64,000 bases of DNA from Streptomyces sp. NBC_00457 (lineage in GTDB: Bacteria > Actinomycetota > Actinomycetes > Streptomycetales > Streptomycetaceae), in NCBI RefSeq assembly GCF_036014015.1, contig NZ_CP107905.1, forward strand, positions 8,618,001-8,682,000. Direction: 5' to 3'. Below are positions 41,448 through 51,809 of this stretch, one piece after another. The notes below the pieces were generated by a model. It saw only the letters and a program-made list of their open reading frames with translations, did not search any database and was not told the DNA's origin. The translations under genes and the position numbers were made by a program. Each line of letters starts with the position of its first letter. Positions within the stretch are counted from its first letter, which is position 1.

Positions 41448-42260
41448 TCACCCCAACCGCGCCGCCAACCCCCCGGTGCACCGCACCTCATCCCCCGCCG
41501 TCACCAGCAACGCCTCCACATCCGGCAGCGACTCCAGCCACCGCAACCCCGCCCGCGAACCCATCGCAAACGCGGCGGTGGCCCAGCAGTCCGCCCACGT
41601 CAGTGAAGGCCCCACCACGGTCACCGCCACCAGGTCGGTCACGGCGGACCGCCCGGTCCGCGGATCGACGATGTGCGCGCCGCGCTCGGCCGTCCCGGAC
41701 GTGGCGACGGCCAGCTCCTCCACCCCCGCAGCCGACACGACCGCCGCAAGTCCCCCCGGCCGCAAGGGATCCGCCACCCCGACCCGCCACGGCCGCTGCG
41801 GCCCGGGGCTGCCGAGCAGCTGGACGTCACCCCCGCCGTTCACGCTCACCCCGCTCGCCCCGACCGCCGCCAGCGACCGCGCCGCCCGTTCGACGGCCCA
41901 GCCCTTGACGATCCCGGTCGGATCGAGCCGCCCCTCGTACGACGTGCTGAACCAACCCTCACTCAGCCGCTCCGCCTCCGCGGCCAGCTCCAGCACCTCG
42001 GCGACCTCGGGATCACAGTCACCGACGGTCAGCTCACCCCGGGCCAGCCGCGACACCTGGCTGTCCTCCCGGTAGGTGCTGAACACCTCGTTCACCTGGT
42101 GCAGCCCGGCGACCGCCTCCTCCAGCGCCGCCTTGACCGCACCGGGATCCCCGCCGCGGACGTCGAAGGAGAAGACGGTCCCCATGACCTCCTCCACATG
42201 ACGCACCGCGGCGGGAGCTCCTGCTGCCGATTCGGCGTGCTCGGCCACCGACTCAGACAC
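41448..42260 (-). CDS. apbE: FAD:protein FMN transferase (ApbE)
   Basis: A 270-residue flavin transferase that attaches FMN covalently to a Thr/Ser of target proteins, using FAD and Mg. MGTVFSFDV, FSTYREDSQVSRLARGE, GIVKGWAVERA, SVNGGGDVQLLG and HIVDPRTGRS are family motifs, and the late metal site lies in the WADCWATAAFAMG segment. No clear signal peptide is seen. The GTG start at 42260 overlaps by eight bases the gene for a protein with three FMN-binding domains, its obvious substrate. Confidence 0.9.
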   Translation of the reverse strand: MSESVAEHAESAAGAPAAVRHVEEVMGTVFSFDVRGGDPGAVKAALEEAVAGLHQVNEVFSTYREDSQVSRLARGELTVGDCDPEVAEVLELAAEAERLSEGWFSTSYEGRLDPTGIVKGWAVERAARSLAAVGASGVSVNGGGDVQLLGSPGPQRPWRVGVADPLRPGGLAAVVSAAGVEELAVATSGTAERGAHIVDPRTGRSAVTDLVAVTVVGPSLTWADCWATAAFAMGSRAGLRWLESLPDVEALLVTAGDEVRCTGGLAARLG

Positions 42261-43449
42261 CGGCCTGGTCCAACGCCGACTGCAGGGACTTCTTGTACCC
42301 GGCGCTGGTGTACGTCGCCCCGGACACCGCGTCGATGTCCGCGCTGCCCGCGGCCACCGTCTGCTGGTTGAGCTTGGGCACCGCGTTGTTGGAGACCTGG
42401 GTGCTCTTCCCGCCACTGGGCGCCTGCACCACCGCGGCCTGGACGATCTTGCCGTCGCGCATCGTGATCCGGACCTGCACCGGCCCGTACTCGGTCTGCG
42501 CGACCGCGCCGGTGACGGTCCCGGTCCCATTGCTGACACCGCCGCCGGCGTCCTGCCCAGCACCGGCACCGGCACCAGCACCGGCCTCGGCACCGGCATC
42601 GCCGCCGGCAGCAGGCGCGCTGGGGCTGGCGCCCGCGCCGGCCTCCGCCCCGCTCCCCGACTCCGCGCCACCGCCGGCGGGCTTCACCTTGTCGAGCGCC
42701 GACTGGAGGGACTTCTTGTACCCGGCGCTGGTGTAGGTCGCCCCGGAGACCGCGTCGATGTCCGCCGTCCCGGCGGCCACCGCGGCCTGGTTGAGCTTGG
42801 GCACCGCGTTGCCGGTGATCTGCGTGCTCTGGCCGCCGGTCGGTGTCTGTACCGCCTCGGCCTTGGTGATCTTCCCGCCGTTGACGGTGATCCGGACCTG
42901 CACGGGCCCGTACTGCGTATCGGCCACGTCACCGGTGACGGTCTGAGCCTGCGCGGCCCCGCCACCCCCCGCACCCTGACCCGAGCCGCCGCCCTGCGCC
43001 GCGGCCTTGTCGAGCGCCGACTGCAGGGACTTCTTGTAGCCCTCGCTGGTGTAGGTCGCCCCGGAGACCGCGTCGATGTCCGCCGTCCCGGCGGCCACCG
43101 CGGCCTGGTTGAGCTTGGGGATCGCGTTGTTGTTGATCTGGGTGCTCTGGCCGCCGGTGGGGTTCTTTACCGCCTCGGCCTTGGTGATCTTCCCGCCGTT
43201 CACGGTCAGCCGGACCTGCACGGGCCCGTACTGCGTGTCGGCCGCGTCACCGGTGAAGCTTCCGGTGCCGATCGCCTGGGCGCCGCCCTGGGCGGATTCC
43301 TGTGCGCCGATCGACTGGCCCGGTGCCGCGCCGCCCACCGCCTCGGAGCCGGAATCCGACCCCGGTTTCAGCGACAGCAGCAGTACGATCCCGGACACGG
43401 TGGCGGCGCCGGCCAGCACGACACGCCGAAGGGGATGGGTCTTCCTCAT
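42253..43449 (-). CDS. membrane-anchored protein with three FMN-binding domains
   Basis: A 398-residue protein. An N-terminal helix (residues about 8-27, VVLAGAATVSGIVLLLSL) anchors it, and three FMN_bind domains follow at about 62-149, 169-255 and 309-396, joined by Gly/Ala/Gln-rich linkers. Each ends with the flavinylation motif DAVSGATYTS, where the Thr after SGA is the expected FMN-ester site, so up to three flavins could be carried. The repeats are 75-90 percent alike, including at DNA level, indicating recent duplication. Flanked by ApbE and a ferric-reductase-like gene, it is probably an electron carrier outside the membrane. Confidence 0.9.
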   Translation of the reverse strand: MRKTHPLRRVVLAGAATVSGIVLLLSLKPGSDSGSEAVGGAAPGQSIGAQESAQGGAQAIGTGSFTGDAADTQYGPVQVRLTVNGGKITKAEAVKNPTGGQSTQINNNAIPKLNQAAVAAGTADIDAVSGATYTSEGYKKSLQSALDKAAAQGGGSGQGAGGGGAAQAQTVTGDVADTQYGPVQVRITVNGGKITKAEAVQTPTGGQSTQITGNAVPKLNQAAVAAGTADIDAVSGATYTSAGYKKSLQSALDKVKPAGGGAESGSGAEAGAGASPSAPAAGGDAGAEAGAGAGAGAGQDAGGGVSNGTGTVTGAVAQTEYGPVQVRITMRDGKIVQAAVVQAPSGGKSTQVSNNAVPKLNQQTVAAGSADIDAVSGATYTSAGYKKSLQSALDQAGV

Positions 43450-43522: not shown

Positions 43523-44905
43523 TCACATCTCGAACGACTCGTGATGGATACGGCGGGCGGGGACCCCCGCGCCGCGCAGTGCCTCGTACACGCCCTGCGC
43601 GAAGCCGGGCGGCCCGCACAGGAACACGTCGTGCTCGTCGATGTCCGGCAGCTTCTGGCGCAACCGCTCCGCCGAGATGTCCGGGCGTTCCCCGTCCGGG
43701 GAGTTGACGGCGTACATCAGCCGGGCGCCCCGCTCGTCGGCGATGGCGGCCAGCTCGTCCCAGAGGGCCAGGTCCTGGGTGCTGTTGGCCCGGTAGAGCA
43801 GCGTGATGTCACCGGAGGCGCCCGGCAGTGTCTCGAACAGCGCCCGCATCGGCGTGATGCCGACCCCGCCGGCGACCAGCAGCACCTTGCCGCGGCTGCG
43901 GCGCTGGGCGGTCAGCGCGCCGTACGGGCCCTCGGCCCACACGCGCGTGCCGGGCGTCAGCTCCCGCAGGCGTTCGCTGTGGTCGCCGATCGCCTTCACC
44001 GTGATCCGCAGCATGTCCGGCCGCGGCGCCGCCGACAGCGAGTACGGGTGCGAGCTGAACCGCATGCCCGGCGCCAGGAACCGCCAGCGGAAGAACTGGC
44101 CCGCCTCCGCGCCCATCCGGTGCAGCTTCCGGCCGCCGATCAGCACGGACACGATCCCGGGCGTCTCCTCGATGACCGCCTCGACCCGCAAGCGGTGGCG
44201 CATGTTCAGCCGGATCGGGGTGAGGATCCGGTACCAGATCACCAGCGCCGTCACCGTGCCGTACAGCCCGTACCAGGCGGTCTTCGCGAGGGGCTCGACG
44301 GCGAACTCGTTGCCGGTGCTGAGCTGGTGCCAGAAGGTGAGGAACACCGCCGCGTACGTCAGCAGATGGACGTGGTACCAGGTGTCGTACGGAATCAACC
44401 GGCGGATCCCGCCGATGGAGATGATCCCGATGAAGAACAGCAGACCGGTGCCGATGGCGGCCTTGCCCATGTCCGGCAGCTGGTTGACGGAGTCGATCGT
44501 CTGCTGGGCGATGTAGCCGAGGTCCTTGCCGGCCTGGCGGGCGTAGCCCCACATGATCAGGAAGACATGGGCGACGGTCAGGCTGAGCGTGTAGCGGCCG
44601 CTCATCGCATGCCAGCGCGCCACCCGGTCCGAGCCGACCCGACGCTCCAGCGCGGGCACCCGGGCCATCTGCAGCACGACCAGCGCCATCAGGTAGCCGG
44701 CGAGCAGACCGGTGATCCGGCCCGCGGCGATGATCTTGCCGGTGGTGTCGCCGATGGACGGGGTGTTGCTCCACCACAGCCAGATCACTCCGGCCGCGCC
44801 CGCCCACACGGCGAGCAGCAAGAGGGTCGCCGGGGAGCGGCGCGGACGAATGCGGCGCATCGTCTGGCGGCGGGCGGCGCGGCCGCTTGCGAGCGTGGTG
44901 GTCAC
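43523..44905 (-). CDS. ferric reductase-like transmembrane flavoprotein oxidoreductase
   Basis: A 460-residue protein. Six or so transmembrane helices (residues about 25-240) include a ferric-reductase-like core with paired histidines (RWHAMSGR, TVAHVFLIMWG, TWYHVHLLTYAA, LTFWHQLS) that could hold two haems. A cytosolic ferredoxin-NADP reductase domain follows: FAD site HPYSLSAAP, NAD(P) site GGVGITPMRAL and CGPPGFAQGV near the end. It would move electrons from NAD(P)H through FAD and haem to the outer face. It is first of a three-gene run with the triple FMN-binding protein and ApbE. Confidence 0.88.
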   Translation of the reverse strand: MTTTLASGRAARRQTMRRIRPRRSPATLLLLAVWAGAAGVIWLWWSNTPSIGDTTGKIIAAGRITGLLAGYLMALVVLQMARVPALERRVGSDRVARWHAMSGRYTLSLTVAHVFLIMWGYARQAGKDLGYIAQQTIDSVNQLPDMGKAAIGTGLLFFIGIISIGGIRRLIPYDTWYHVHLLTYAAVFLTFWHQLSTGNEFAVEPLAKTAWYGLYGTVTALVIWYRILTPIRLNMRHRLRVEAVIEETPGIVSVLIGGRKLHRMGAEAGQFFRWRFLAPGMRFSSHPYSLSAAPRPDMLRITVKAIGDHSERLRELTPGTRVWAEGPYGALTAQRRSRGKVLLVAGGVGITPMRALFETLPGASGDITLLYRANSTQDLALWDELAAIADERGARLMYAVNSPDGERPDISAERLRQKLPDIDEHDVFLCGPPGFAQGVYEALRGAGVPARRIHHESFEM

Positions 44906-45037: not shown

Positions 45038-45658
45038 CTACCCCTGCGCGGGGCAGGAGGAGACGGGTGTCACCGACGTCACGACGGTGTCGGGCAGGGT
45101 GATCCGCTCGCGGTCGCCGCCCTTCCCCTCGATGCCGAGTACGACGGCGTCGGGCCCCGAGGCCAGGAAGGCTCCGCACCGGTCACCGGTGGTCGTTCCG
45201 ACCCGGACCAGATGATCCGGAGCCGACTCGGTCGTCGACCAGGCGACGGCGATCGCCGCGGCCGCGAGCACGATCCCGGCACAGCAGCACAGAGCGGCCA
45301 GGCGCAGAGATCGCGTGACCCGGCCGATCTCGCGCGTGGTCCAGCGGCGTAGCGCCTGACCGCCCATCAGCCTGGATCTCTCATCCATCCGGCCGTGCGC
45401 GGCACGGGTCGCCAGGACGGAACCGGCGACCAGGAGCAGGAACGCCAGAGCGATCAGCCCGGAGGCGGCGTTCCCCGCCGCTGTCGGGAGCTGGGCCAGA
45501 TCGTCCCTGCCCTTGAGCACCACCAGGACAGTGAGCAGAGCGGCCAGGCCGGTGAGACCGGAGCGCCAGCCCTCGGCCTGTCTGCGCAACTCACCGAGCT
45601 GCGTGAACTCCAGTTCATCGGCGAGCAGGTCCCACCGCTCGTCGGACTCCAGGCTCAC
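45038..45658 (-). CDS. three-TM membrane protein of the caspase-Hsp90 operon
   Basis: A 206-residue protein with a 35-residue cytosolic acidic and helical start (ESDERWDLLADELEF, QLGELRRQAEGW) and three predicted transmembrane helices (SGLTGLAALLTVLVVL; GLIALAFLLLVAGSVLA; LAALCCCAGIVLAAAAIAVAW). A C-terminal extracytoplasmic domain of about 55 residues carries two cysteines (GDRCGAF, SSCPAQG). The GTG at 45658 overlaps the stop of the zinc-ribbon gene (GTGA). No family is recognised. In this operon it may be the membrane target or effector, but that is speculation. Confidence 0.75.
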   Translation of the reverse strand: MSLESDERWDLLADELEFTQLGELRRQAEGWRSGLTGLAALLTVLVVLKGRDDLAQLPTAAGNAASGLIALAFLLLVAGSVLATRAAHGRMDERSRLMGGQALRRWTTREIGRVTRSLRLAALCCCAGIVLAAAAIAVAWSTTESAPDHLVRVGTTTGDRCGAFLASGPDAVVLGIEGKGGDRERITLPDTVVTSVTPVSSCPAQG

Positions 45659-46062
45659 CGGGCCCCGATCCTCGCGAGGGCGCCGAGTACCCAGCTGGCA
45701 CCGCAGCCCACTCGGCCCGCGTGACCATCGGACGGCCGGTTCGGATGGGGGTGCCCACAGGCACAGAAGTACCGCTCGGCCCGCAGCACCTCTTGGTCCA
45801 TCGCCTGGTCCGTCGCGGCTTCGGGGTTCCTGCGCAACCGGAGCCACGAGGGCACGGATGGCGCCCCCTTGGTCCCCGTGCCGGGCACGATGCGCCGGAT
45901 CTCGCGCCGTGTTCTGCCATGGCAGCGGGGGCAGTTGCCCTCGACGACGACACCGAGGCCGTCATCCGCGTCGCGCCAGGTGAAGGGGGACGTGGTACGG
46001 CCGACGTCGGTGGCGGCGTACTCGGCGTCGAAGTCGTGGCTGCGGGGCGGTTGTTCAGGCAT
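45655..46062 (-). CDS. zinc-ribbon-like protein of the caspase-Hsp90 operon
   Basis: A 135-residue soluble protein. Metal-binding-like pairs are CPRCHGRTRREIRR near residue 44 and FCACGHPHPN near residue 98, followed by VGCGASWV. This looks like one or two treble-clef or zinc-ribbon units. The middle is basic (WLRLRRNPEAATDQ). The ATG at 46062 overlaps the end of the caspase-Hsp90 gene by eight bases, and its own stop overlaps the next start. No enzyme motif is present; an adaptor or nucleic-acid-sensing part is possible. Confidence 0.75.
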   Translation of the reverse strand: MPEQPPRSHDFDAEYAATDVGRTTSPFTWRDADDGLGVVVEGNCPRCHGRTRREIRRIVPGTGTKGAPSVPSWLRLRRNPEAATDQAMDQEVLRAERYFCACGHPHPNRPSDGHAGRVGCGASWVLGALARIGAR

Positions 46063-49000
46063 CGTCCCCCTCCAGACGCAGGTCGAACATGGCGGCGTAC
46101 AGGCGCAGCCGCCCTCTGATCCAGTCCTCGGTCTCTCCGGTGGCCTGCGCTGCGAGCGTGATGTGCCGTGTCGTCACCAGGCCCTCCACAGCGGGCAGTA
46201 CGCCGTCGAAATGTCTGCTCAGCAGGGCGAGGTCCTGCCACAAGGGGACTACGCCGGGCACGGACGGCAGTGTGACCGGGACCGGCCACAGGGGAAGGTA
46301 GGGCTCGATGCGCCGGGCCGTGTCCGGGAGCGGTTCGCCGAGCCGGGCGGCGACGCTGACCAGGTCCAGGGGCGAGGGCGGCTGGTCGTGGTCGCTCACC
46401 CAATGATCCGGGTCGAGCGCGGTCAGGTCGTGCCGGGTGGGGGGTGAGTCGGGCAGCGCCGCGGACGCGGCCCGGGACAGATCCGGCACCAGGGCGCCGA
46501 GGGGACGCAGCGCCGCCAGCCGTGCATAGGCCGCAGCGGTGCCGATCTTGAGTTCCGCCGCGATATCGGCCAGCCAATGGGGCGTGAGCGGCTTCCATAC
46601 GCTCGGCAGGTAGTAGTTGTTTTCCCGGGGCTGTTCGGTCAGGGCGCTGCACTCTTTGGCAGACGGACGGTGATCGGCGAGGTCCTCGGGGAGTACCGGC
46701 ACCGTCAGGCCGAAACGGGGCGCCTCGCGCTCGGCGATCCCCCACACCTCGCGCAGGGATTCGTGCAGGAATCCGGCGGACTGGAAGAGGGAGGCCGTGG
46801 TCAGCCGGTCCGTGGGCCAGTTCTCCGACTCGTTGGAGACCTCCTTCCCCGACAGGACGAAGCGCGTGCGCAAGGGGAGATCCCGCCAGGCCAGGAGGGG
46901 AGTGAGGTCGTCCGGGACATCGAGGCCCGCGGTGCGCAGCTGCTCGACGGCGTGGAGGAATCCCTCCTCGACGCCGGTCCATGGCCGTGCCAGTCGCCCC
47001 AACTGCTCGAGCCCCACGCCGTCCTCCAGCCGGTGACTGTCTCCGATGCAGTCGTTGATGAGTGCGACGACGACGGGGGTGGGGACGACCTGCGACGCGA
47101 GCGAGTCGTGGGCATAGTGGCGCTCGTGGATCAGGCCGAGACGGGCAGCCGCGTGGGCCAGGCACTCCTCGGCCTCGGCGAGGCTGATTCCCCGACCGGA
47201 CGCCAGGTCGAACGTCGCGGTCCAGGGCAGAGCGTCGTGCCCGTCGCTGTCGACGTGGACGCGATTCTTGAGGACGGTCTGGACATCGGCATCGAGTTCC
47301 GCCCAAGCGGTGACCTGTTCAGCCGGGGGAGCGGTCCAGCCGAGCCACTCGAAGCGGGAGAGCGTGGCCAGGATCTCGGAGGCCGGCAGCCCCAGGTTCC
47401 GGCTGGTCGTGTGGATCTGCTCCGGGGTGCTCACTCGGAGCAGGTTGGAGCTGTACACGTCATCACTGGGCAGTGTCAGCCTGTCGATGTCGTCGGCCGT
47501 GCACACGTAGTCCTCGTGATGCGCCGGGACGGCAGGCCAAGGCTTCTCGCGGCCCAGGACGGCGTAGCGGGCGCACCGTCGGACCACCTCTCCGAGCGGC
47601 ATCGCCAGTCGCTCGGACGCCAGCACCGCGCCGCCGAGGTCGTAGAGCCCTTCCGAACCGTCGGCGGCGATACTTCGCGGGTTGGAGAATGCGTCGACGA
47701 TGGCGCGGTCATCCTGGTCCGGAACCAGGGACGGAACCTCTCCGGAGACCGGCGACGCTCCTCTCCGCTTGTGGACCGGGCGAAATCGCCGCCTCCGCTT
47801 GATCACCTCATCCACTGGCAGGCCATGGCGTCCGGCGTACGCGACCACTCCCCACCAGGTGTTGGGGATCCCCCAGATGTCGGCGTCCCCGGGTTCTGGA
47901 ACCGGATATCCCTCCAGGCTCAAAGGCTGCGCCGGAGCGTCCGAGCCCTGCGCCAGAGCGAGGACGGCGGCTCTCCAGGGCGCGGTGTACTGGAGATCCG
48001 TGTCCGCTCCAAAACGCTTGGATGCCTGCCACCTGTCGCCAAGCGTCTGATCCAGAGGGAACCAGCCCTGCGCGTCGAGAGAATGTACGTCCGACACGCC
48101 CCTGCGCACCGTCAGCCCCTTGCCGCGCCACTCGCTGTGCAGGATGGTGGCGGCGGCCAATTGGTCGGTTTCCAACTCCCAGAGCCACTCCATGGTGAGC
48201 TCCGGCCACCCTGCGAGGGCGGCGGCGCCCGCGCGCCAGTTCTGCTCGGCCCAGGAACGGTCGTAGTCCTGGAGCTCCTTCCGGTTCACACTGAGTCGCC
48301 CCGCGTGCGGACCGGTCAGGTTGAGTACGTAGCCGAAGGGCTGCTGATCAGTGGCGATGCCGTCGCACAGTACCGCGCCCTGCCCGGGCACCCACCACAG
48401 CACGCCCGGGACGGCTTCGAGCGCCTCGGCGACCGCGCCGGCGTCCTGGTGCAGCACGCCAGGGGCCCATGGGCGATCGAGACCGGGCGCGTCACACACG
48501 TGCAGTTCGAACTCGCTGACCCGGACCAGCTCGCGCAGCGTCTTCACACACGACAGTCCGTCGGTCACGGGGCCCTCGCGCAGGTACAGGCGGACGAGAG
48601 TGCCGCCGCCGGAGAGACTGTCCCCCGTCCCGTCGTGACGCTTGATGCGGAAAAGACTGCCGCTGCTCGGAATGTCGACTTGGAGCGCGTGATCGTCGGG
48701 AATGCCCTTCTGGTTGACCTGACGAGTCACGATGGTCATCTCGTCGTCGAGCATGAAGTAGCTGAACACACCGATGCCGAAACGGCTGTTGGGATAGAGC
48801 CGTAGTCCGGGGTCGTGGCGCAGCCAGCGCGACTGCTCGCGGCGGAAGGCTTTCGACTGCTCGAAGCGACTACCGGCCCGGGTGAACGTGTACTTCAACT
48901 GCTCGGCGCTCATGCCGACGCCGTTGTCCCGGCACTCCACATAGCGGCCGCGGTCGTCCTCGCCCTGACTGATGGTGATGTGGCCGGACCAGGCGTCCGG

Positions 49001-51010
49001 GTTCATGCCCATGCTGGTCAGGTACTTCCAGCGCATCGCACGGTAACGGCACGCGTCCATGGCGTTCTGGTACAACTCGCGCAGGGCGAGATGGGGTTCT
49101 CCGGAGTAGAGCTGCTCGCCCATCAGCAGCTCGCGGACCTCGGTCTGAGCCAGGCGGAAGCGCAGCAGGGGCGTCTCGTACGCCGGGACGTTGCCGACCT
49201 GGGCAGGGCCCACCCCTCGCGGAGTGATCTTCCTCGGCACCGCTGCCAGCAGTGCCGCCTCCGCGGCCGGCCGCGTGTCGGCCAGCGTCAGGACCTCCTC
49301 AGCGATCTGGTCCGCCCGCTCGGCCACCTCGGTGAGAGCGGCATGCAGGGCCTGATGCTGGCAGAGTGCGTCGAGATGCAGCGCGTCACGGTCCTCCTCC
49401 CAGGCCAAGTGGCGGACGAGCCCGATGACTTGGTGCGCCTGCACCGGGTCGCTCACGGCCAGGTGCTCGGCCACGATCTCGGGGAAGGTGCGCACGTCCA
49501 CGGCGAGTACGGCCGCGAGGCGCAGCAGCGCGGTCAGCGGCTGGATCCGCAGTGTCTGGTGGTTGCCATGGAGGAGCACCTTGCCGCGGGCGTGCAGGTG
49601 CGCGTCCTCGCGTGGTTCGGGCAGCCCGATGGCGGCGGCAGCAGAGCACAGCAGCTCGGACAACTCCTTGACCCGGCCGTCCGCCCTGTCCTGTCCGAGC
49701 AGCAGCGAGGCGAGATCGTCGGCCGGACCGGCGGGCACCGGGGCGCTGTCCGTCTCGAAGCGCTCGGCGATCCAGCGGTGCACCAGCCACATGGTCACGG
49801 TGGTCGCGTCCTGCGCGCGGTGACGAGCGCGGCAGTCGGCCACTTTGCGGGCCACGCGCGCGTACTGGTCGATGACCTGCTCGTAGTGCCTGCGATCGTC
49901 GTTGGGCAGGATCTGCGGATCGAGGGTCAGGGGATCGGCCTCGGCCGCACGGCTCAGCCGGTCCGCCCAGGCGGCCTCGTGGAGAAAGGGGGCGGCCACC
50001 AGGACCGCCGCCTCCACGGCCGAGAGCGTGGCGGTGTCCGGCAGCAGCCGCGGCAGCCGATCGCCCAGCAGACGGATGGGGAACAGGTCGTCGACCCATG
50101 GATCCGGCTCGGGCATGCGCTTACGGGCCGTGTGGAGCGTGTCCGCGCAGCCCTTCACCCACGTCTCCAAGGACTGCAGCAGACCGGGCACGCAGGCCTG
50201 CTGGCTCTGCTCGACGCGCTTCCACAGCGGGCAGCCCCGTACGGCGTCGCGCCAGGCCTCCAGAAGTTCCTGACCCTCGCAGATCTCCGCGACCCGGGTC
50301 TCCGCCTCCAGGTTGGTGCCGTACCGGATGGCTGCCAGCTGTCGTACCTGATGCCGGTCCGCCTCGGCCTGAGCCGCCTGCTGGGCCATCGTGAAGACGC
50401 TCTGGACGGTGCGCGCGGATGTCATCGAGTCCAGGGCCTCGACGAGCCCTCCGGTGAAGAAACTGCCCCGGGGGGTGAAGTCACTGAGTTCCCCGGGCGA
50501 GCAGCCGGTCATCACGGCGAATCCCCCGTGCGGCGGGCCGTTGTCGATGCTGTTGCCGAAGGGCACGCCGTCGTCGGGCATCTCGGTACGGCAGGCGTCG
50601 ATGAGCCAGAGAACTGTTGCCGCCTTACAGCTCTTGAGCAGGGGACTGATCTTCGCCGGCAGGAGCGAGTCGATGTACGGCTCCTCCCAGTTCCCGTCCT
50701 CGGGCGGGGTCACGTCCCACGGGACGAGGAAGTCCTCCGTGCCGACACGGATGCCGTGGCCGGTGAAATAGAGCAGCAGTGTGCCGCCCTCAGGTATGCC
50801 CCGGGCCACCTCGCTGATGGTCGCCCTGATACGGGAGCGGCCCGCATCCGCGTTGTGCAGCGTCCGCACCTCGTAGTGCGAGTCGTGGAGCACCGTCTTC
50901 ATCCGGGTGAGATCGGCCGCCACGGCCGCGTCGAGCGATTCGGCGCCCGATGGTGCCGCGGGTGTGTCCCCGACCCCGATCAGCAGTGCCCTGCGTGCTG
51001 AACGCCCCAT
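46055..51010 (-). CDS. caspase-like protease fused to Hsp90-like ATPase and C-terminal repeat region
   Basis: A 1,651-residue protein. Residues 1-250 are a caspase (C14) domain with dyad His85 (YFTGHGIR) and Cys140 (WLIDACRTE). About 300-590 is all-helical and possibly an inactive HD-type domain. About 605-920 is a GHKL/Hsp90 module: N-box LRELYQNAMDA (Glu645, Asn649, Asp652), DNGVGMS (695-701), the glycine-rich FGIGVFSYF (744-752), GGTLVRLYL, and LSVNRKELQ, which resembles the Hsp90 middle-domain Arg segment. About 960-1651 holds several winged-helix-like units (LGLPASEILATLSRF, LGEPLPDTARRIEPYL). All ATP and protease motifs look intact. Two overlapping genes follow. It resembles computationally described caspase-Hsp90 conflict proteins; the role is inferred. 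Confidence 0.88.
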   Translation of the reverse strand: MGRSARRALLIGVGDTPAAPSGAESLDAAVAADLTRMKTVLHDSHYEVRTLHNADAGRSRIRATISEVARGIPEGGTLLLYFTGHGIRVGTEDFLVPWDVTPPEDGNWEEPYIDSLLPAKISPLLKSCKAATVLWLIDACRTEMPDDGVPFGNSIDNGPPHGGFAVMTGCSPGELSDFTPRGSFFTGGLVEALDSMTSARTVQSVFTMAQQAAQAEADRHQVRQLAAIRYGTNLEAETRVAEICEGQELLEAWRDAVRGCPLWKRVEQSQQACVPGLLQSLETWVKGCADTLHTARKRMPEPDPWVDDLFPIRLLGDRLPRLLPDTATLSAVEAAVLVAAPFLHEAAWADRLSRAAEADPLTLDPQILPNDDRRHYEQVIDQYARVARKVADCRARHRAQDATTVTMWLVHRWIAERFETDSAPVPAGPADDLASLLLGQDRADGRVKELSELLCSAAAAIGLPEPREDAHLHARGKVLLHGNHQTLRIQPLTALLRLAAVLAVDVRTFPEIVAEHLAVSDPVQAHQVIGLVRHLAWEEDRDALHLDALCQHQALHAALTEVAERADQIAEEVLTLADTRPAAEAALLAAVPRKITPRGVGPAQVGNVPAYETPLLRFRLAQTEVRELLMGEQLYSGEPHLALRELYQNAMDACRYRAMRWKYLTSMGMNPDAWSGHITISQGEDDRGRYVECRDNGVGMSAEQLKYTFTRAGSRFEQSKAFRREQSRWLRHDPGLRLYPNSRFGIGVFSYFMLDDEMTIVTRQVNQKGIPDDHALQVDIPSSGSLFRIKRHDGTGDSLSGGGTLVRLYLREGPVTDGLSCVKTLRELVRVSEFELHVCDAPGLDRPWAPGVLHQDAGAVAEALEAVPGVLWWVPGQGAVLCDGIATDQQPFGYVLNLTGPHAGRLSVNRKELQDYDRSWAEQNWRAGAAALAGWPELTMEWLWELETDQLAAATILHSEWRGKGLTVRRGVSDVHSLDAQGWFPLDQTLGDRWQASKRFGADTDLQYTAPWRAAVLALAQGSDAPAQPLSLEGYPVPEPGDADIWGIPNTWWGVVAYAGRHGLPVDEVIKRRRRFRPVHKRRGASPVSGEVPSLVPDQDDRAIVDAFSNPRSIAADGSEGLYDLGGAVLASERLAMPLGEVVRRCARYAVLGREKPWPAVPAHHEDYVCTADDIDRLTLPSDDVYSSNLLRVSTPEQIHTTSRNLGLPASEILATLSRFEWLGWTAPPAEQVTAWAELDADVQTVLKNRVHVDSDGHDALPWTATFDLASGRGISLAEAEECLAHAAARLGLIHERHYAHDSLASQVVPTPVVVALINDCIGDSHRLEDGVGLEQLGRLARPWTGVEEGFLHAVEQLRTAGLDVPDDLTPLLAWRDLPLRTRFVLSGKEVSNESENWPTDRLTTASLFQSAGFLHESLREVWGIAEREAPRFGLTVPVLPEDLADHRPSAKECSALTEQPRENNYYLPSVWKPLTPHWLADIAAELKIGTAAAYARLAALRPLGALVPDLSRAASAALPDSPPTRHDLTALDPDHWVSDHDQPPSPLDLVSVAARLGEPLPDTARRIEPYLPLWPVPVTLPSVPGVVPLWQDLALLSRHFDGVLPAVEGLVTTRHITLAAQATGETEDWIRGRLRLYAAMFDLRLEGDDA

Positions 51011-51110: not shown

Positions 51111-51809
51111 TCAGTACCGCGTGATCGCCGTCCGCCCGCTCGTCGTCCCGATCGCGAGGTGCGGTCTGCGGCCGGGGTCGGCCCACTGGAGGATCCGCCG
51201 CATCGCGTCCGCCGGCACCGACACACAACCGGCCGTCGCCCCGCGCCCGTTGACATGCAGGAAGATCCCGGCTCCGCGGTGGCGGACGGGCTTGTGGTAG
51301 TTGAAGTCGACGACGAGCGCGTGGTCGTACTGCGTGGTGTACGAGATCAGCCGCTCCGACTCGGCGGCCCGGCAGTCGGCCGCCAGGGGCTCGGTCCAGC
51401 GGTTGTAGGAGCGCGAGTCGTTGTCCTGGCACCACCAGGAGTTCCGGCGCACAAGGCGGTAGGTGTACGTCGTCCCGCGCGGCGCCGCTTTGATGCCGAA
51501 GGCGTACGGCATGCCGTACAGCCCGGTGGGCGTGGTGTTCGTGCCCTGCTTGCGCGTGGCGCCCTCGACCAGGCCGTTCGCGCCGAAGCGGGCGGCGGCG
51601 GAACCCGCCTTGACCCAGCGGCCGTCGCTCAGGTCCCACCAGGTGACCGTGCCGGTCGTGGAGCCGGTCCGGGGTGCCACGGCCGTGATCAGCTGGGTGC
51701 CGCCGCCGGTGTCCGCCATCCGCGCGGGCAGCGGCGGGGCGCCCTCGGGCGCGGCACCGAGCAGGAGGAGGGGCGAGGCGGCGAGGGCGACGACGACACC
51801 GGGGCGCAT
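51111..51809 (-). CDS. secreted L,D-transpeptidase-like (YkuD) protein
   Basis: A 232-residue protein with a signal peptide (MRPGVVVALAASPLLLLGAAP). The YkuD catalytic motif appears late as IFLHVNGRGATAGCVSVP, with His and the Cys nucleophile in place. TPTGLYGMPYAFG is the usual glycan-loop lead-in. Members cross-link peptidoglycan or attach proteins to it. A dibasic, Trp-rich middle (NSWWCQDNDSRSYNRW) is typical of the actinobacterial branch. It starts three bases after the stop of the upstream PPOX gene and is likely cotranscribed with it. Confidence 0.88.
   Translation of the reverse strand: MRPGVVVALAASPLLLLGAAPEGAPPLPARMADTGGGTQLITAVAPRTGSTTGTVTWWDLSDGRWVKAGSAAARFGANGLVEGATRKQGTNTTPTGLYGMPYAFGIKAAPRGTTYTYRLVRRNSWWCQDNDSRSYNRWTEPLAADCRAAESERLISYTTQYDHALVVDFNYHKPVRHRGAGIFLHVNGRGATAGCVSVPADAMRRILQWADPGRRPHLAIGTTSGRTAITRY

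Follow-up and report, generated by a model that had tools for sequence, protein, structure and literature searches.

A caspase–Hsp90-type ATPase gene and its zinc-ribbon and membrane partners in Streptomyces: a candidate ATP-gated, membrane-coupled protease cassette

We analysed a window of 64,000 nucleotides from Streptomyces sp. NBC_00457 (contig NZ_CP107905.1, positions 8,618,001 to 8,682,000), whose genome comprises 10.8 Mb in a single contig. Three overlapping genes on the minus strand of this window form a compact cassette. The first encodes a protein of 1651 residues (46055..51010) that combines a caspase domain, an iHD-CE domain, an Hsp90-type ATPase with a middle-domain-like part and a winged-helix C terminus. 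The second encodes a zinc-ribbon protein (Zn) of 135 residues with the pattern CPxC..CxC..H..GCGA (45655..46062), and the third a transmembrane protein (TM) of 206 residues with three hydrophobic segments and a C-terminal Cys-pair domain (45038..45658). An earlier note, written from the letters alone, had described the overlaps between these genes, and the coordinates of the open reading frames (ORFs) confirm them: the large gene and the Zn gene share eight bases (46055-46062), and the Zn and TM genes overlap by four bases through GTGA, whose GTG is the start of the TM ORF.

The caspase domain spans residues 6-223 of the large protein (50342..50995) and matches Peptidase_C14 in Pfam with 55.1 bits against a cut-off of 21.4. 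It has the fold and the His-Cys dyad that define caspases, with His85 in a GHG motif (50756-50758) and Cys140 in DACR (50591-50593). For comparison, the iHD-CE profile was run against 295 genomes of the same genus and 14 control genomes, and against a separate even sample of 396 genomes of the phylum; from 64 matches, 60 loci were taken with their flanks, leaving out four short pieces. A second set holds 77 loci of named relatives, drawn from the best 80 of 378 relatives. The catalytic dyad is intact in all 40 caspase-bearing iHD-CE loci and in 76 of the 76 scored named loci, L168 being left out of the latter count. The caspase motifs lie where the earlier note had placed them.

The strongest Pfam match of the large protein lies in a domain that the earlier note had overlooked in its plan of the chain. 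Residues 253-603 (49202..50254) match iHD-CE (PF24401) with E=2.5e-86 and 290.5 bits against a cut-off of 27; HD-CE (PF24391) also scores above its cut-off over roughly the same stretch. The adjoining residues 620-970 (48101..49153) hold the Hsp90-type ATPase and the middle-domain-like part. The Bergerat ATP site, with its Glu, Asn, Asp and glycine lid motifs, is of the Hsp90 type: LRELYQNAMDA stands at residue 643, DNGVGMS at 695 and FGIGVFSYF at 744, and the middle-domain-like segment SVNRKELQ follows at 907. A role has been assigned to each residue of such an ATP site. These residues, as well as R910, are invariant in 38 of 38 homologues. Alignment A1 omits L097, L099 and the duplicate L122. 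By whole-protein score the module falls short of the family: the protein reaches 40.5 bits against 371 for HtpG and 41.8 against 455 for PRK14083, HtpG-type NCBIfam matches have E about 1e-10 but lie far under the cut-offs of those models, GHKL matches around residues 640-767 are weak (about 20 bits, below the cut-off of 25-26), and no Pfam HSP90 family match appears at E<=1. Profile-profile comparison over the N-domain with 15 HtpG-like ORFs, a crude set, gave a probability of 99.5. A likeness to Hsp90 is seen in the N-domain and over part of the middle domain.

The remaining residues 971-1651 (46058..48100) form a mostly helical, winged-helix-like array. Its top-scoring wHTH-HSP90_Na-assoc unit (PF24410) covers residues 1588-1638 (46097..46249), the whole protein scoring 65.2 bits against a cut-off of 23. 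Two stretches exceed the Pfam cut-off in the window protein and up to seven in one relative, which favours the long winged-helix array that had been proposed; the model of the C-terminal half has a mean predicted local distance difference test score (pLDDT) of 86.1 but found no Foldseek match in the PDB at E<=0.001, so this part of the proposal stands only in part. The caspase and Hsp90 folds, by comparison, were borne out in the predicted structures. Taken together, sequence comparison and modelling show a chain whose caspase and Hsp90-type ATP site are both intact and which also has a partial Hsp90 middle domain, an iHD-CE spacer and a predicted winged-helix C terminus. The nearest named match of the N-terminal half is a Streptomyces record (97%).

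The caspase is N-terminal in 40 of the 58 iHD-CE loci with an inspectable N terminus (L115 and L121 have none). The 18 caspase-less proteins fall into one separate group (support 97/97) of a midpoint-rooted maximum-likelihood tree of the iHD-ATPase core, which has 57 rows and omits L097, L099, L115 and L121. An exchange of the effector in this clade was considered and rejected: the N termini of L063, L067, L069, L081, L092 and L100 matched no effector family, and the neighbouring genes at L064, L069 and L072 (a glycosidase, RecR and DUF5063) gave no support either. In the genome of the window, the iHD-CE, Zn and TM profiles each match at this locus only. A second caspase-domain gene of the same genome (G000:C1:5406715-5407380) lies in an open frame of 882 residues.

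Neither small protein matches a Pfam family above its cut-off, and no Pfam family at E<=0.1 is common to more than three of 26 TM or two of 26 Zn homologues. No gasdermin family appears among the Pfam matches of these homologues (26 of each protein, E<=0.1), as far as sequence comparison reaches, and the SLATT membrane effector profile gives 12 bits against a cut-off of 41 (E=0.15). In PADLOC the TM protein has only a match to mREase_IV at E=0.023. By a simple hydropathy cut-off, the window protein shows three hydrophobic segments (residues 30-48, 57-89 and 114-144), as the earlier note had it; three segments are seen in six of 26 aligned TM homologues, the window protein included, and two in the other 20.

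The three genes probably belong together. The iHD-CE profile matches at 64 places in 45 of the 295 same-genus genomes and in none of the 14 controls. Downstream of the 60 loci, Zn and TM are both present in 26, in 25 of the 295 genomes; both are absent in 34, and neither is ever found alone. With start codons chosen by our script, the spacing between the large gene and Zn is -8 to +26 bp in 25 of the 26 loci, the exception being L111 with its shortened large ORF (2305 bp), and that between Zn and TM is -4 bp in 23. All 26 pair-bearing loci fall into one tree group of 29 rows (support 100/100), whose other three rows are a second tandem copy in genome G260, entered twice, and L085. In that genome the order is large gene A, Zn, TM and large gene B, with a single Zn-TM pair and large proteins that have diverged to 65.7 and 54.8% identity to the window core.

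Among the 77 named loci, the pair lies directly downstream in 59. At L135 and L181 it lies directly upstream of the large gene, as in the tandem array of G260, and at L141 and L154 it lies past a shortened or broken large ORF; L137 and L167 stop at a contig end, and L168, a partial gene with 776 bp left, shows neither Zn nor TM. Pair-bearing genera include Streptomyces, Kitasatospora, Streptacidiphilus, Micromonospora and Nonomuraea as well as Kineosporia, Acrocarpospora, Actinomadura, Rhodococcus and Hamadaea. Six loci outside the Actinobacteria, from three cyanobacteria and from Pyrinomonadaceae, Nealsonbacteria and Methanosarcinales bins, have no pair, although L196 and L197 offer less than 560 bp of searchable sequence. 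The co-occurrence predicted for the three genes was thus found in both sets of loci.

Profiles grown from the two small window proteins traced the pair beyond the iHD-CE loci. With those loci included, TM matches in 53 and Zn in 48 of the 295 genomes; six weak partial TM matches (E 3.8e-7 or worse) were set aside. From this search we took 34 other regions of about 11 kb each, 32 with both genes and two with Zn only (L228 and L237). None of the 34 matches the iHD-ATPase core or C14 caspase profiles; at L227 a large gene of this family is present only as its tail. Instead, 8 of 10 scanned large neighbours score above the Pfam CHAT cut-off. A CHAT profile was then grown from eight of the loci that it later scanned, so that the Pfam matches are its independent support. 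It places a CHAT gene in 22 of the 32 pair regions, on the same strand upstream or divergent, and about 4 kb away in L208. The background is low: 132 CHAT matches in 61 genomes, about 2.2 per genome, would be expected to touch about 0.3% of random 11-kb stretches. In the pair-linked copies, one Cys column and the His columns are invariant in 23 of 23. L213 has a subtilase (S8) gene about 1 kb from its pair. Because the pair recurs with CHAT where no Hsp90-type core was found, the usual associate of the small genes appears to be a caspase-clan protease of one kind or another and not specifically the Hsp90 module, which would then be one of several control routes.

At L220, the Zn and TM parts form one continuous ORF, the only such fusion seen, which argues for a physical complex of the two proteins. 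Divergent to it lies a gene of 1484 residues (L220:2631-7085) that resembles a polymorphic toxin; it contains ricin-type lectin repeats and matches Tox-REase-5 weakly. The pairs at L225 and L226 closely resemble the Hsp90-linked ones in sequence, have no large gene or recognised protease adjoining, and may be remnants or free modules. Near the pair of L233 there is a gene for an AbiEii-like nucleotidyltransferase of the type IV toxin-antitoxin kind.

These data bear on two readings of the small genes. That the Hsp90 module is a true chaperone, the caspase its client-processing protease and the small genes accidental neighbours in the operon is very improbable. The likeness of the N-terminal domain and part of the middle domain to Hsp90 would suit it, but the missing Pfam HSP90 match does not, and the joint presence of the small genes in 26 of the 26 iHD-CE loci that have either, with their recurrence beside CHAT proteases, largely refutes the accidental-neighbour part. 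More serious is the view, possible though not favoured, that the pair acts upstream as a membrane anchor or sensor: the Cys-pair domain of TM would read envelope damage, Zn would relay it and the caspase would cut other proteins, a role like that proposed for EACC1. A joint alignment across the locus classes shows that the CPxC..CxC..H..GCGA pattern of Zn is largely, not always, shared, as are the WRNG segment, the KGR between the first two hydrophobic segments, A-x-HG-x-P and W-x-x-P of TM. After W-x-x-P, beyond the last hydrophobic segment, TM often carries a C-terminal domain with two conserved cysteines, as a sensor might; this domain is absent from variants of about 150 residues (for example L103-L105 and L109-L114) and from the CHAT-linked L215 and L218, and the large protein already has a candidate sensor array. 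The constancy of the pair while the protease module varies parallels EACC1 (PMC7159879), but there EACC1 is a 5′ gene with one transmembrane helix, and the Zn-TM pair is 3′ and different.

The cassette appears to have been inserted at a chromosomal site. Upstream lies an L,D-transpeptidase (YkuD) gene (51111..51809, minus strand), the left border of the site, and downstream a ferric-reductase-like gene (43523..44905, minus strand), the right border; both are outside the system. Among 61 genomes searched, the two flank genes are at most 300 bp apart in 11 and 4.2-4.7 kb apart in five, including G022, whose flank proteins are the most similar to those of the window (90 and 92% identity); in the window the cassette fills a gap of 6.2 kb. 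In nine empty sites examined, 76-149 bp separate the two flank genes; the right part of this stretch can be recognised within the 132 bp past the window TM gene. Seven of the 77 named loci have the same system between both flank genes, and others lie elsewhere. No repeats of at least 18 bases surround the cassette, promoter and terminator scans gave no more than in shuffled sequence, and its guanine-plus-cytosine content is like that of its surroundings. L103-L105, L109, L110 and L112-L114 have common downstream genes (about 486 and 1504 residues, opposite strand), which suggests that the system has a second fixed place in the chromosome. The gene at 42253-43419 of the window, which follows the ferric reductase gene on its downstream side, contains internal repeats of about 80 residues (self-overlapping matches, also in relatives).

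On the basis of these results, we lean towards reading this chromosomal cassette as an ATP-gated, membrane-coupled caspase system, most likely one of biological conflict or controlled cell death. We have high confidence that the Zn-TM pair is a dedicated membrane partner of the protease, and a conflict or death function is probable. Counted in favour of the reading were the patchy spread of the system and its insertion at a site where the two flank genes lie side by side in 11 relatives. Several findings weigh against it. L085 is a caspase-iHD-Hsp90 gene inside the pair-bearing clade that has no pair; the named loci L149, L152, L155 and L166 have neither Zn nor TM, and L145 has Zn only. Related caspase-iHD-Hsp90 clades also do without the pair. 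In three scanned loci of these sister clades with the same large-protein plan (L082, L096 and L118), a Pepco gene (PF24393) stands directly upstream and no pair downstream, an arrangement that would fit exchangeable protease partners. Zn occurs without TM at L228 and L237, the latter beside a CHAT gene. For eight of 58 pairs (L216, L217, L220, L224, L225, L226, L233 and L236), the scanned neighbours, one or two per locus, include no protease, and the genome of L225, G065, has no CHAT match anywhere. No relative of the system was met in a phage collection; plasmids held no full-length relative, with ATPase-region matches in two. In PADLOC, the large protein matches only the generic caspase model PDLC02987 and no further known anti-phage system.

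A developmental or stress protease without an anti-phage role, active for example in hyphal remodelling or envelope quality control, would account for this scarcity on mobile elements, where only partial matches occur, for a YkuD transpeptidase and a ferric reductase as neighbours, and for the confinement of above-cut-off iHD-CE to this genus in the phylum sample (3 of 396 genomes, that of the window among them). We regard it as unlikely, because patchy, inserted, tandem or broken copies are unlike core development genes: iHD-CE is present in just 45 of 295 genomes of the genus, the site is empty in 11 relatives, tandem copies occur occasionally (G260), and some large ORFs are broken (L099 and L154).

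For the ATP-gated, membrane-coupled system, we propose the following course. A trigger would be recognised by the C-terminal array, either alone or together with the middle-like part. Proximity activates other caspases; here, ATP-dependent closure and dimerization of the Hsp90-type N-domains would unite two caspase domains and so activate them. At the membrane, the active caspase would then act either on the Zn-TM pair or by way of it, and the cell would stop or die. Whether the pair serves as cleaved executioner or as anchor or sensor appears about evenly balanced, and each role is put forward tentatively. Bolder still, and rather doubtful, is the idea that the pair is a membrane executioner of a new kind, operated by proteases and without sequence relationship to gasdermins, which actinobacteria would combine with different caspase-clan proteases: Hsp90-gated C14 caspases in one lineage, and elsewhere CHAT proteases gated by TPR or other modules. 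In the Hsp90 branch, ATP-driven closure of the clamp would dimerize and fire the caspase.

If true, gasdermins would be joined by a second bacterial pairing of protease and membrane partner, one that can move between two protease families, and a caspase would be switched directly by an Hsp90-type ATP clamp within its own chain. One testable cassette would then bring together the mechanics of chaperones, the activation of caspases and self-sacrifice at the membrane level, and the natural C14/CHAT swaps and the natural Zn-TM fusion offer built-in controls for it. The presence of the pair beside a second caspase-like family suggests that these proteases are linked to the cell membrane in a common way, and antiviral self-sacrifice may be the purpose.

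The domain kinds of the large protein are catalogued in Pfam and hence known computationally: it exceeds the curated cut-offs of PF24401, PF24391 and PF24410, none of which covers the Zn or TM protein. We found no paper describing this cassette, in a literature search that covered few subscription journals and was not aimed at the Zn-TM pair, and none describing HD-CE or Pepco/Trypco, apart from one occurrence of 'Trypco' in PMC7159879. The main text of the 2012 survey 'Prokaryotic Caspase Homologs' (PMC3501461) contains neither 'hsp' nor 'hatpase'. In the MoxR/vWA, GTPase and HSP70-tubulin conflict systems of PMC7159879, whose effectors include caspases, chaperone-like NTPases are proposed to determine the threshold at which the effector is released; these are AAA+, GTPase or HSP70 modules, not Hsp90-type ones, and 'hsp90' does not occur in that text. 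A GHKL ATP site is fused to an effector in the GHKL-ATPase defence protein VcSduA, where the exchange E27A in the ATP site abolished defence (PMC12137116), but its effector is a nuclease, not a caspase, and the passage available mentions no membrane partner pair.

In the two-gene EACC1 systems (PMC7159879, System 4), an actinobacterial caspase is likewise joined by a small membrane component and a variable C-terminal part. There, the partner is a 5′ gene with one transmembrane helix, whereas here a zinc-ribbon and a multi-segment membrane protein stand at the 3′ side. The large protein scores 45.5 bits against the cut-off of 140 for the EACC1-associated caspase (NF047832), the gene upstream is the YkuD transpeptidase, and the Pfam matches that 26 TM homologues gave at E<=0.1 do not include EACC1. 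Bacterial gasdermins, small membrane-acting proteins, are encoded beside caspase-like proteases (C14 and CHAT) and other proteases (PMC9612521), and the Zn-TM pair has a similar choice of neighbours (C14, CHAT and one S8 nearby); the TM protein, known here from sequence alone, differs in its several hydrophobic segments and in having no gasdermin match. Against this background, we consider three parts new: the pair of Zn and TM genes, its association with C14-Hsp90 as well as CHAT proteases, and the Zn-TM fusion.

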